Positions 44,583 through 48,487 of a stretch of 64,000 nucleotides of DNA are shown here, one piece after another; position 1 is the first letter of the stretch, and every line of letters starts with the position of its first letter. The stretch spans positions 62,001 to 126,000 of the forward strand of contig JAADHF010000131.1 of NCBI GenBank assembly GCA_013151965.1, read 5' to 3'. A model generated the notes under the pieces. It worked only from the letters and a program-made list of their open reading frames with translations, was not told the DNA's origin and made no database searches. This DNA is from Spirochaetota bacterium (GTDB lineage Bacteria > Spirochaetota > Spirochaetia > SZUA-6). A program made the position numbers and the translations under genes.

Positions 44583-45563
44583 TTAATATTCTTTAATAAG
44601 CATATCAAAAACCAGAGAAACTTTGTACGTTTTATTCTTCTTTACCGTTACCTTTCTTGTAAGACTGTAATCATCTATTTTTATTCTTATCAAATGTTCA
44701 CCTCCCTTTATTCTTATCCTCTTAAGCTGATAAGGGGCGAGTTTTGTTCCGTCCAGATAGACAACAGCATTTTCCGGCGCTTCGAAAGAAATGGTCGATA
44801 TGTTTTGTTTAAGAATTATATTCATACTGTTTGTCTTTCCCGCTTCTATGGTAAATGCCGAGGTGACCTTCTCGAAGGACGCCGATTGTATAAGCAATTC
44901 ATGAATACCTGCATCCAGTTCGACAGGTTTGTTTTTATTGTTAACCTCTTTTCCGTCGATAAAAACGGAATACTGCTCGTTTTTAAAATCTTCAGGTTTT
45001 TTTATCGAAAGCTCGAGGAAGCCTCTGTTTATAACCTCCGGGGCAGCTGAAATATAGAATTCCTTTGTAAATGCCTTGTCGGGAATGCCTTTCATAACGG
45101 GCTGTATGGTTATTAAAAGAGGAAAATCGGATATGGAAACAGGTTTTTTAACAGAAAAGATATTTTCCCGGCTGCCCCTGCCGGCTTTTTTGTCCGTCTG
45201 TACGGGTATTCTTACGTAGATTCTGTTCTGATAAGGGATAATATGTGAAAATATCCGTATTCCCTTAAAATTTTTTAATCCCTTTGCAGGCAGAGGCTTT
45301 AATCTTTTAAAGAGAATTATCTCGAAACTATCTGCATATCTCTTTAATGTATTTGATTGATGCATCTCTAACGTTAAAGACTTAAGAAATTCTTTATTTC
45401 CCTGTATATCGAGTACTACGGATTCTTCCAGTTTAAGTTTAGTATTCTTTTCGCTTCCCGACTCTACCGGAAGTGAAATAACGGCGGCAACAGGTGATAC
45501 AATGGTTTCTGCGTACAGATAAACCGAAGATGAAAGCAGTATAAGGAAAATGAATCTTTTCAT
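44583..45563 (-). CDS. Exported protein with two PEGA-like repeats
   Basis: 326 residues with a signal peptide (about 1-18, ending near LYA). The first half is unassigned. The second half carries two short PEGA-like beta units (about residues 180-245, with VFIDGKEVNNKNKPVELDAG, and 250-320, with PENAVVYLDGTKLAPYQL). It likely sits in the periplasm or on the surface and may bind peptidoglycan or other envelope partners. It overlaps the M23 peptidase gene by 4 bp and ends before a strong terminator. Confidence 0.65.
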   Translation of the reverse strand: MKRFIFLILLSSSVYLYAETIVSPVAAVISLPVESGSEKNTKLKLEESVVLDIQGNKEFLKSLTLEMHQSNTLKRYADSFEIILFKRLKPLPAKGLKNFKGIRIFSHIIPYQNRIYVRIPVQTDKKAGRGSRENIFSVKKPVSISDFPLLITIQPVMKGIPDKAFTKEFYISAAPEVINRGFLELSIKKPEDFKNEQYSVFIDGKEVNNKNKPVELDAGIHELLIQSASFEKVTSAFTIEAGKTNSMNIILKQNISTISFEAPENAVVYLDGTKLAPYQLKRIRIKGGEHLIRIKIDDYSLTRKVTVKKNKTYKVSLVFDMLIKEY

Positions 45564-46483
45564 TTCTTTAATCCGTTAATAAGGGGAACAGGGTTCGTCG
45601 GAGCCCCCTTGCGTCTTATCTCGAAGTGAAGATGCGGACCTGTGGACATTCCTGTACTCCCCACTGCACCGATAATCATACCCGAAGTAACATGTTGATG
45701 CAACTCCGCTTTAATTTCTTTTAAGTGGCCGTACACTGTTTCGTAACCGCCTTTATGCCGGAGTATAATATAATTTCCATACACCTTATTATAGCCCCTT
45801 TCTATTACAATTCCGTCACGCGCCGCAAAAACATCCGTGCCTGAAGGTGCCGCGATATCTATGCCTGTGTGAAATTCAGGGTGGCCTGTAAAAGGGCTGG
45901 TTCTTTCTCCGTACCCCGAGGAAAGAACGCCTTTGCTTAAGGGAAAGCGGAATAAGAGTTTCAGGAAATAAGCCCGTTCTATCGGATGAAATCTATCGCT
46001 TAAATAAAAGTTGTAGTATGTTTTTACCCCGGCTTCCGTTATGATAAGTTTAATTACAGGTTCGGATTGTCTTACCCTCCATGAAAACATAATATCTTCG
46101 AGAGTGGATTCCGGTTTAAGCGGGACAAAGATGCCGGGCAAATTTGGTATGAGAATTCTTTTTCTTTTTTTAAGCTCTTCGGGATTACTGATGCGGTTTA
46201 GAGTTGATATCGTATCATAAGGCAGATTCAATTGAGCAGCCAGGGCAAACAGGTCGTCACTTTTATGAAGTGTATAGCTGAAAATTATAACCGGAGGAAA
46301 CTTATTATCCTTCTTGTTCTTATTTCTGCTTTTCCAGCGGTAGTATGTTTTTATGTCATCCTGCAGCTGTACAAATAGAGGATCATTCCGGTTAAGATAA
46401 TGTATCTCCGGATAATCTGCAAATGTTTTAAAACTGAATATAAACAGTAACAGGAATATACTGAATTTATTTATACTAATAAT
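45560..46483 (-). CDS. LysM/M23 peptidase with signal peptide and apparent ATT start
   Basis: Reading back from the stop, the open frame extends 84 codons beyond an internal TTG at 46231. It yields a signal peptide (SINKFSIFLLLFIFSFKTFA), then a LysM-like segment (about residues 65-115) and an M23 (LytM) metallopeptidase domain with HTGIDIAAPSG and GPHLHFEI. The full protein is about 307 residues. In this frame there is no ATG, GTG or TTG before the signal peptide. The best start is ATT at 46483-46481, nine bases after GAGG, inside the end of buk. The 46231 TTG would cut the LysM domain and lose export. Confidence 0.7.
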   Translation of the reverse strand: MISINKFSIFLLLFIFSFKTFADYPEIHYLNRNDPLFVQLQDDIKTYYRWKSRNKNKKDNKFPPVIIFSYTLHKSDDLFALAAQLNLPYDTISTLNRISNPEELKKRKRILIPNLPGIFVPLKPESTLEDIMFSWRVRQSEPVIKLIITEAGVKTYYNFYLSDRFHPIERAYFLKLLFRFPLSKGVLSSGYGERTSPFTGHPEFHTGIDIAAPSGTDVFAARDGIVIERGYNKVYGNYIILRHKGGYETVYGHLKEIKAELHQHVTSGMIIGAVGSTGMSTGPHLHFEIRRKGAPTNPVPLINGLKK

Positions 46484-47546
46484 CTTTTAATTCCTCTATG
46501 CCGGAGAGATATCTTAGGCCTGCTTCCGCCAGTGCGGACATTTCATTTTCTCCCGGATAAACTTTAACCGGTGCAATCCATTTTGTCGCCTCCTCTATCC
46601 ATTCGGTTAACGGCGGGTGGGCCATGCCTCCTGTAAGAATAATCATGTCCGCTTTTCCTTTAAGTACAGCCGCCATCGCCCCGATTTCTTTCGATATCTG
46701 GTATGCCATAGCCTCGAATACTTCTAAGGTACGGGCATCGCCCTTCTTAATTCTTTCGGTTATTTCTATGCCGTCATCGGTCCCGATATAACCCAGCAAA
46801 CCGGATTTTTTGGTAAGAATATGGTTAAGTTCCTCTGCACTTCCGTATTTGCCTGAAAAACATAAATTTACAAGTTGTGTTGTGGGCAGAGAACCTGTCC
46901 TCTGCGGAGAAAAAGGTCCGCCGTCATTGGCATTGTTTACATCCACAATTCTGCCCTTTTTAAGCGGTGCCACGGAAATACCGCCTCCCAGATGAACGAC
47001 TATAAGATTTAAATCGAACATAGTTGTTCTTAGACTGTCAGCCGCTCTGCGTGCCGCTGCTCTTATATTAAGAGCATGTGACTGGCACTTTCGTTCCATG
47101 CCCGGAAAACCCGAATAACGTGCCAGGGGTTCGAATTCATCGACACCTACCGGGTCTGTTATAAAAGCGGGGCAGTTAAAGCGCCTGCCTAATAAATCTG
47201 CAATCAGTGCGCCGAGATTGGAGGCATGGCTGCCGTATTTCGACTCTTTCAGATCTCTGATCATCGATTCCGTGATTTTGTAACTTCCTGCGGGGACCGG
47301 TTTTACAAGTCCTCCCCGTCCCACTACGGCATCGAGAGTTTCGATTTTCTGCTCTTCTAGAAAGTCCTCTACGGCTTTAATCCTGAAGTTGAGCTGATCT
47401 ATGGGATTTTTCCGCTTTTCAAGTATATCAGGGTCATGTTTTATATTTCGTGCGGATCCTTCTGCGGGTTTGCTGTTTTCTGCTCCATAATAAACTGCAA
47501 CCTTTGTAGATGTAGATCCGGGGTTGATTATACAGATGGAAAACAT
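46476..47546 (-). CDS. buk: Butyrate kinase
   Basis: 356 residues of the acetate/butyrate kinase family. N-terminal NPGSTSTKVAVYYG and the central HLGGGISVAPLKKGRIVDVNNANDGGPFSPQRTG are characteristic. It converts butyryl phosphate and ADP to butyrate and ATP. With the adjacent ptb gene it completes butyryl-CoA to butyrate with ATP formation. The ATG has an AAGGAGG site, 53 bp after ptb. Its last codons overlap the start of the M23 peptidase gene. Branched-chain acyl substrates are possible. Confidence 0.92.
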   Translation of the reverse strand: MFSICIINPGSTSTKVAVYYGAENSKPAEGSARNIKHDPDILEKRKNPIDQLNFRIKAVEDFLEEQKIETLDAVVGRGGLVKPVPAGSYKITESMIRDLKESKYGSHASNLGALIADLLGRRFNCPAFITDPVGVDEFEPLARYSGFPGMERKCQSHALNIRAAARRAADSLRTTMFDLNLIVVHLGGGISVAPLKKGRIVDVNNANDGGPFSPQRTGSLPTTQLVNLCFSGKYGSAEELNHILTKKSGLLGYIGTDDGIEITERIKKGDARTLEVFEAMAYQISKEIGAMAAVLKGKADMIILTGGMAHPPLTEWIEEATKWIAPVKVYPGENEMSALAEAGLRYLSGIEELKDY

Positions 47547-47599: not shown

Positions 47600-48487
47600 T
47601 TAAGTATTTACCGATGAAACACCTAAAAGGATAGAATTGAGTTTTTCCGACTTCGTATCCGAACGGGACAGAAGAATCACGGGTGCTTTTGCTCCTGCAA
47701 TAATACCGCCGGAGGGAAACCCGGCCTGGTGAATTAAAGATTTACCGAGAATGTTCCCGCTTGCAATATCGGGAACCACAAGTATATCGGCGTCGCCTTT
47801 GATTTTAGAGTTAACACCTTTTAATTCGCATGCTTCCCTGCTCACTGCAAGATCGAGTGCAAGGGGTCCTTCGATAACGGCATCTTTTATCTGCCCCCGC
47901 ATACCCATCATATCAAGTGCGGCAGCTTCCACGGTGGATTGTATCGCCGGATTAACAACCTCCACAGCGGAGAGCAGAGCAACCTTTGGTATTTTTACAC
48001 CGAGAGAACGGAAAAGGCTTACGGCATTTTTTATTATATCAATTTTTTCCGTAATGCCGGGTGCTATATTAAGACCGCCGTCCGTAACTCCCAGGAAGGA
48101 ACCGTCTTCCTTTTCAAATACAGCGATGTGTGATAAAAGCCCGCCCCGGCGAAGCCCGTAACCGGCATTAAGTACCTCTTTCATCAGCAGGGCTGTCGGA
48201 ACATGCCCCTTCATCAGGCACTGTGCCCTGCCGCTGCTGACCTCCTGAACGGCTTTTCTCGAAGCCTCCGGTTCATTATGCGCATCGATACTGCTGTACT
48301 TCCGCAGGCCCGCTTTTTTGGCATTCTTCGTAATTATATCCGCGCTGCCTATAAGCAGGGGAGAACAAATCCCAAGATCGGATGCCTCTTTTAATGCATG
48401 GAATATCCCGTCTTTAACAGGATATGCGACGGCAATAACAACAGGCTTTTTTTTCTTCATATTCCGGGCTAATTCTTTAAAGCCCAT
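47600..48487 (-). CDS. ptb: Phosphate butyryltransferase
   Basis: 295 residues of the phosphotransacetylase/phosphotransbutyrylase fold, at the shorter length of the Ptb branch. Typical segments include LMKGHVPTALLMKEVLNA, GVTDGGLNIAPGITEK and GDADILVVPDIASGNILGKSL. It makes butyryl phosphate from butyryl-CoA for Buk downstream. The product may also act on other short acyl-CoAs. It lies 13 bp after a small membrane-protein gene and 53 bp before buk. Confidence 0.9.
   Translation of the reverse strand: MGFKELARNMKKKKPVVIAVAYPVKDGIFHALKEASDLGICSPLLIGSADIITKNAKKAGLRKYSSIDAHNEPEASRKAVQEVSSGRAQCLMKGHVPTALLMKEVLNAGYGLRRGGLLSHIAVFEKEDGSFLGVTDGGLNIAPGITEKIDIIKNAVSLFRSLGVKIPKVALLSAVEVVNPAIQSTVEAAALDMMGMRGQIKDAVIEGPLALDLAVSREACELKGVNSKIKGDADILVVPDIASGNILGKSLIHQAGFPSGGIIAGAKAPVILLSRSDTKSEKLNSILLGVSSVNT

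Follow-up and report, generated by a model that had tools for sequence, protein, structure and literature searches.

Some bacterial genes are translated from AUU, and pcnB is one of them. E. coli infC combines an AUU start with autoregulation by IF3, and Streptomyces sigR starts with GTC (PMC5472188). In the spirochete Borrelia burgdorferi, pncA (bbe22) is reported to start with AUU, on the basis of earlier genetic and biochemical work cited in the same paper, and databases still carry the truncated protein (PMC13398362). AUU and AUA starts have been mapped in Staphylococcus aureus in cvfC1 (AUU), ccpN (AUA), and infC (AUA), and reporters carrying the noncanonical codons of the three genes tested reached, in poor medium, ∼10% of the level seen with AUG (PMC13009471). 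When closely related genomes were surveyed in 2017, a switch to AUU was seen at 1 of 61,358 ancestral AUG starts and 1 of 5,080 GUG starts, and by these counts an AUU case shared by a genus would be uncommon (PMC5622118). CUG initiation complexes are treated in PMC11497404 and the rescue of a frame-shifted lambda cI by an odd start codon in PMC6397469; neither is counted as evidence here.

A peptidase frame without a canonical start codon

The window, a stretch of 64,000 nucleotides from a Spirochaetota bacterium, carries on its minus strand, in this order, a ptb-like gene, buk, a gene for an M23 peptidase, and a gene for a PEGA-domain protein. The features of the locus are as follows.

47600..48487, minus strand: ptb-like phosphate butyryltransferase gene, upstream of buk (TIGR02706, E=2.8e-90, 302 bits, under the 410-bit cutoff)
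46476..47546, minus strand: buk, butyrate kinase gene, ending GAT TAT TAG (TIGR02707, 433 bits versus a cutoff of 289)
46493..46496, minus strand: GAGG, a Shine-Dalgarno-like tetramer within the Glu-Glu codons of buk (duplex, -6.0 kcal/mol)
46481..46483, minus strand: ATT, candidate start 1, with GAGG nine bases ahead; the overlap with buk would be 8 nt
46478..46480, minus strand: ATT, candidate start 2, with one base in common with the buk stop (ATTAG, 5-nt overlap)
46478-46476, minus strand: TAG, stop codon of buk
46472..46474, minus strand: ATA, candidate start one base past the buk stop, present in all three genomes of the genus
45560..46483, minus strand: LysM-like/M23 peptidase gene from the first ATT, stop codon included (Pfam Peptidase_M23)
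46418..46483, minus strand: candidate signal peptide with core FSIFLLLFIFSF, cleavage probably after TFA (translation, by eye)
46229..46231, minus strand: internal TTG, the first canonical start codon of the peptidase frame, inside the LysM match
46145..46276, minus strand: LysM-like domain, residues 71-114 (Pfam LysM, E=0.0053, 17.1 bits)
45590..45874, minus strand: M23 peptidase domain, residues 205-299 (Pfam, E=4.8e-35)
44583..45563, minus strand: PEGA-domain gene, whose ATG overlaps the peptidase stop (ATGA; sequence and profile match)

The peptidase frame opens at 46486, directly after TAA (46489-46487), and closes with the stop codon that ends at 45560. The original prediction had described a frame that stays open far upstream of the internal TTG, and both its coordinates and its reading were correct: 85 codons without ATG, GTG, or TTG come before TTG 46231-46229, which is codon 86. 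That the upstream stretch encodes a signal peptide and the beginning of a LysM-like domain was also borne out, by a hydrophobic N terminus (KIISINKFSIFLLLFIFSFKTFA-DYPEI) that was recognized by eye in the translation and in the orthologs, and by a weak LysM match at residues 71-114. This match did not reach the Pfam cutoff (17.1 bits versus 20.9, E=0.0053), and the domain is hence called LysM-like only. The Peptidase_M23 match, at 120.1 bits (cutoff, 28.7; E=4.8e-35), was far above its threshold, and the HxxxD and HxH motifs of M23 peptidases are visible in the translation. The protein scored under the cutoff of all 15 NCBIfam families listed, and the solved structures nearest by sequence were 3slu and 6muk. 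As one part of an overall explanation that we consider reasonably probable, the product would be an exported LysM-like/M23 peptidoglycan peptidase.

A relative of the PEGA-domain gene adjoins the peptidase gene in 15 of 21 loci of the order. Considering this adjacency and the ATGA overlap in the window, the PEGA-domain protein and the peptidase may work together.

Orthologs were collected by searching the order (E ≤ 1e-50; match in 21 of 26 genomes) and the class (E ≤ 1e-55; match in 77 of 148 sampled genomes). The 44 orthologs whose DNA was compared are the 21 from the order plus 23 that the class search added within its best 30 matches; record L048 (Spirochaetales MAG, SZUA-6), which is probably the same genome as G001, was left out of the counts. 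G000 is the genome of the window, G001 and G002 are the only other genomes of the genus examined (peptidase identity to G000, 94% and 71%, respectively), and G003 represents a sister genus. A conserved YP motif, placed by alignment column, marks the beginning of the mature part. ATG, GTG, or TTG was found 14 to 45 codons ahead of this motif in 41 of the 44 orthologs (in L150 only at 44), a count that refers to the availability of such a codon and does not imply its use as a start. The three orthologs without one were exactly G000, G001, and G002. A canonical start ahead of the signal peptide is thus absent in all three genomes of the genus; G001 reaches its first canonical codon, GTG, at codon 39, past the signal peptide, and G002 has its own, TTG, at codon 96 of a longer frame. 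Because the exceptions are confined to this genus, an indel error and a start at the internal TTG can be rejected.

An automatic caller would place the start at the internal TTG, the first canonical start codon of the frame, and would predict a short cytoplasmic enzyme. We consider this extremely unlikely. The original prediction would have been refuted by orthologs that begin at this TTG, but the orthologs do not begin there: the aligned codon is CTG in G001 and CTT in G002, and TTG is found there in only 4 of 44 orthologs. Furthermore, the TTG sits inside the LysM match (residues 71-114), and the stretch before it is under purifying selection, as described below. A normal start hidden by a sequencing or assembly indel had also been raised, and the source assembly is indeed a draft of 143 contigs. 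However, the separate genomes G001 (94% identity) and G002 (71%) have the same frame and the same junction, with no canonical start and no start-creating indel; G003 does have a TTG, in another phase. An assembly error therefore has next to no probability. The real N-terminal extension without a canonical start, conserved in the genus, was confirmed.

Comparison of G000 with G001 over the 81 codons from the buk stop to the internal TTG gave a dN of 0.042 and a dS of 0.484 (ratio, 0.087), with 5, 3, and 17 changes at codon positions 1, 2, and 3; the dN/dS ratio for the remaining peptidase gene was 0.124. Between G000 and G002, for which dS was saturated, the changes in 79 codons were 28, 19, and 48 by codon position. 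The upstream stretch is under purifying selection. When the open reading frames of the contig that contains the window (C1; 262 kb, 7% of the genome) were ranked by codon-model score ahead of the first canonical start, the peptidase gene was at the top among 226. It also ranked first, with 34 identities, when conserved residues ahead of the first canonical start were counted in 211 ortholog pairs between C1 and 305 kb of a G003 contig (404 reciprocal pairs, from which 193 overlapping ones were dropped). In 18 of these pairs, at least 10 residues aligned upstream of the first canonical start of one genome or the other, the next after the peptidase being a fliO-like gene (20 identities) and prfB (18). 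Inspection by eye of the other 15 pairs indicated mostly chance alignment or conserved sequence before an ordinary start; the gene at C1:48002 is a further candidate.

The buk-peptidase junction and the candidate start codons

Within the DNA covered, a buk match lies in front of the peptidase gene in 6 of the 21 order loci (G000 to G003, G008, and G009). The junction codons of the peptidase frame in the genus are ATT ATT (AGT or AAA) ATA, and buk ends GAT TAT TAG in G000 and G001 and GAT TAT TAA in G002. The last buk codons of G003 are GAT TAT TGA, and a TTG within them is available as the peptidase start (TTGA). Those of G008 and G009 are GAT TAC TAG; here the first TTG follows two bases later, behind a weak Shine-Dalgarno match (-2.4). 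The peptidase frame has one phase relative to buk in G003, G008, and G009 and another in the genus of the window.

The candidate starts lie at -8, -5, and +1 relative to the buk stop. This position, within a few bases of the stop, suits the translational coupling to buk that was originally proposed. ATT 46483-46481 is, as predicted, nine bases past GAGG (46496-46493). The prediction that this ATT overlaps the buk stop held only in part: ATT 46483 lies off the TAG, although the gene starting there overlaps buk by 8 nt, and it is ATT 46480 that shares one base with the stop, in a 5-nt overlap that reads ATTAG or ATTAA. For usual start codons 5-nt overlaps are held to be excluded, and ATT is named as able to form ATTAG and ATTAA (PMC10666635). 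An ATG in place of either ATT would alter buk, because the third base of one ATT also opens the buk Tyr codon and that of the other opens the buk stop, whereas ATA 46474 is free to become ATG without altering buk. The buk codons GAT TAT T thus partly enforce the conservation of the ATTs.

Duplex energies were computed against the 16S tail. ATT 46483 had matches of -6.0 (G000) and -6.5 (G001) kcal/mol at a spacing of 7-8 and in G002 only -3.3 at a spacing of 0. For ATT 46480, the same matches in G000 and G001 fall at a spacing of 10-11, and G002 had -5.9 at a spacing of 1. ATA 46474 had -3.3 (G000) and -3.0 (G001) at a spacing of 16 and -5.9 at a spacing of 7 in G002, where the best match, TAAGGA, coincides in position with the first ATT and suits the ATA instead. 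Across these three genomes, then, the Shine-Dalgarno fit is to ATT 46483 in G000 and G001 and to ATA in G002. A match of -6.0 or better at a spacing of 4-11 stood before 251 of 2110 random in-frame codons, so a match of this kind is weak evidence when taken alone. The choice of starts by Shine-Dalgarno energy alone was also tried and was rejected as mostly noise, since 33 of the 94 genes with a best match of -7 kcal/mol or lower had it before a codon other than ATG, GTG, or TTG. Local RNA structure at the junction was not significant (z = -0.77).

The original choice of ATT 46483 as the start is favored by the fit in G000 and G001; against it stand the presence of ATT 46480 and ATA 46474 in all three species and the G002 match, which points to the ATA. 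Translation from ATA 46474-46472, one base past the buk stop, would give products beginning MNKFSIFLL... in the window and MKKITVAAI... in G002, both typical beginnings of signal peptides. The ATA occurs at the same place in all three species, has a good match in G002 (spacing 7, -5.9 kcal/mol), and has precedents in staphylococcal ccpN and infC, which start with AUA (PMC13009471). However, in G000 and G001 its best match is 16 bases off and weaker (-3.3 and -3.0), and no change from ATA to ATG is seen in the three species, even though buk leaves it free. In addition, G000 and G002 agree at just 3 of the first 20 codons past the buk stop, so that their common ATA may be due to chance. A start at ATA is accordingly somewhat unlikely, while being the strongest of the alternatives.

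It had been stated that only ATT or ATA can start the frame. ATG, GTG, and TTG are indeed missing, but in-frame CTG codons are present at 46453 and 46447, inside the core of the signal peptide. CTG starts seem to be present elsewhere in the genome, and G001 retains the first of the two CTGs, for which it shows a weak match (-3.1 kcal/mol at a spacing of 5). Nevertheless, there is almost no match for CTG in G000 (-0.3 kcal/mol), G002 is without CTG there, and a start at this point would remove the positively charged end of the signal peptide. Thus, it seems very improbable that either CTG is used.

The peptidase might instead be reached by a +1 ribosome shift at the buk stop, as in prfB, with a Buk-peptidase fusion as the product. 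In favor of this, the peptidase is read in the +1 frame relative to buk, a stop codon closes buk, and the genome carries a prfB shift site. At the buk stop, however, a CUUUGA-type slip site is absent and the tRNA on UAU would be unable to re-pair with AUU; moreover, a fusion would bury the signal peptide, and in G003 the frames are in another phase, with a TTG. Such a shift can hardly be credited.

These comparisons suggest that the start is most likely one of the two ATTs (46483 or 46480), coupled to termination of buk, a choice that we hold with fair confidence. Translation would begin with a noncanonical AUN codon where buk and the peptidase meet, AUU 46483 or 46480 being the most likely. 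Ribosomes ending buk at UAG 46478-46476 would re-initiate there with ordinary fMet-tRNA, possibly aided by GAGG in the last buk codons. The simplest reading is that fMet-tRNA initiates at AUN once buk has been terminated, and the placement suggests that translation of the peptidase is coupled to that of buk. The efficiency of ATT in E. coli is ∼0.3% of that of ATG (Hecht et al. 2017, cited in PMC10666635), and IF3 disfavors AUU read by the CAU anticodon in a purified system (PMC10158994). Both reports count against an efficient start, and the yield of the peptidase may be low. Raised IF3 inhibits noncanonical starts and lowers re-initiation in E. coli (PMC2268962).

The arrangement probably arose in the ancestor of the genus, in which a small indel would have shifted the peptidase into another phase relative to buk. 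This change would have destroyed a TTGA-type overlap like that of the sister genus and left AUU and AUA as the only codons at the stop. The ATTs would then have been kept, since ATG at either would alter buk. The constraint imposed by the overlap with buk would by itself account for an ATT and is as good a reason for it as the low or autoregulated initiation that had been suggested. Taken as a whole, the explanation in which an exported peptidase is translated from an AUN start at the junction by re-initiation, following an indel in the ancestor of the genus, is in our judgment probably right.

Apparent unusual starts elsewhere in the genome

Several genes outside the window also appear to have unusual starts. 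In the fliO-like gene (C1:182632-183291; the NCBIfam names are FliZ/FliO, under cutoff), no ATG, GTG, or TTG occurs before the signal peptide, and a CTG follows GGGAGGGGA. Matches were found in 24 of 26 genomes of the order, with DNA for 20 orthologs, and in 114 of 148 genomes of the class. Starts were assigned by distance from a GGAGG/GGGGG core, with ATG, GTG, or TTG taken first, CTG second, and ACG or ATN last, and with rows that gave none or an odd codon counted; choosing the start by energy was rejected because it mostly picked codons after the start. By the distance rule, the 20 orthologs of the order (L106 to L125) had CTG in 14, GTG in 3, TTG in 2, and ACG in 1, and 22 loci of other orders had GTG in 11, ATG in 5, TTG in 3, CTG in 2, and none in 1. 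These are counts of candidates, as G016 and G018 have a canonical codon a few codons after the CTG, and the ACG is uncertain, the genome concerned (G017) having an upstream in-frame ATG. For much of the order, a CTG that follows an extended GGGAGGGG Shine-Dalgarno sequence is the apparent start of the fliO-like gene. A literature search found no report on a CTG start of fliO and no title on it among papers on spirochete fliO and noncanonical starts.

The gene at C1:48002-51022 encodes a large protein with a signal-peptide-like beginning, and its best-placed start is a CTG after AAGGAG (AAGGAGATTAAAAA). In the G003 ortholog, the CTG in the corresponding position follows AAGGAGTGTTAACA, and a GTG lies upstream of it within the Shine-Dalgarno sequence. 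In all 24 order loci shown (L049 to L072), infC has an apparent TTG start about four bases after GGAGG (GGGGG in one); in a few of them the frame is open further upstream. The prfB gene (C1:132380-133548) contains the site AGG AGG TAT CTT TGA C, presumably a classic +1 frameshift site.

Two changes in the initiation machinery were considered and rejected. A pattern search for initiator-like anticodon stems in G000 to G003 yielded 15 loci. In 4 of them, one per genome, ARAGORN recognized a tRNA, always tRNA-Met (CAU); it recognized none in the remaining 11, among which L076 (G002) has the same CAU motif. A changed initiator tRNA was therefore dismissed, each genome having a tRNA-Met(CAU) with an initiator-like stem, as was loss of IF3, infC being found in all four genomes.

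The starts of the fliO-like gene, C1:48002, and infC suggest a tolerant initiation system in the lineage. It is possible, although doubtful, that starts rejected by IF3 are an ordinary, conserved way of setting expression in this order, with the fliO-like CUG (perhaps ACG once) behind GGGAGGGG and the AUU of the genus peptidase held by the buk overlap as examples.

Implications and comparison with known systems

If the preferred reading, an AUU start at the buk junction, is right, software restricted to ATG, GTG, and TTG starts misses the export signal of this cell-wall enzyme in the genus and would assign it to the cytoplasm; an automatic cut at TTG 46231 would drop the part that sends the protein out of the cell. 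The locus would also illustrate concretely how an AUU start can evolve: two overlapping genes change phase relative to each other, and the upstream gene then rules out ATG where the codons overlap. Starts of this kind may be underannotated in spirochetes, as is suggested by the CTG with which the fliO-like gene appears to begin across much of the order.

The protein resembles M23 (LytM) peptidases of the MepM/ShyA kind in its M23 domain and differs from them in having a single weak LysM-like domain before the peptidase domain. Like E. coli infC, its gene would have an AUU initiator, but infC encodes the factor that discriminates against AUU, and no such loop is apparent for the peptidase; infC of this order, with its apparent TTG start, also differs from the AUU of E. 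coli. The peptidase shares with S. aureus cvfC1 and ccpN a noncanonical start that is conserved among relatives, whereas the staphylococcal genes have a strong, extended Shine-Dalgarno sequence and the peptidase has a modest GAGG, and cvfC1 is the first gene of its operon whereas the peptidase gene follows buk. In stop-start overlaps with termination-reinitiation, as described in PMC10666635, the overlap is likewise short and codirectional, but NTG starts and lengths of 4 or 1 nt are usual; with ATT 46480 as the start, the overlap here would be ATTAG or ATTAA.

The peptidase is most likely a further case of natural AUU/AUA initiators, a kind already known from Borrelia pncA. Both would be spirochete genes with an AUU start that are truncated in databases, and the missing part of PncA is needed for function (PMC13398362). 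For the peptidase, by contrast, the evidence is comparative, and the candidate start lies at an overlap with the upstream gene.
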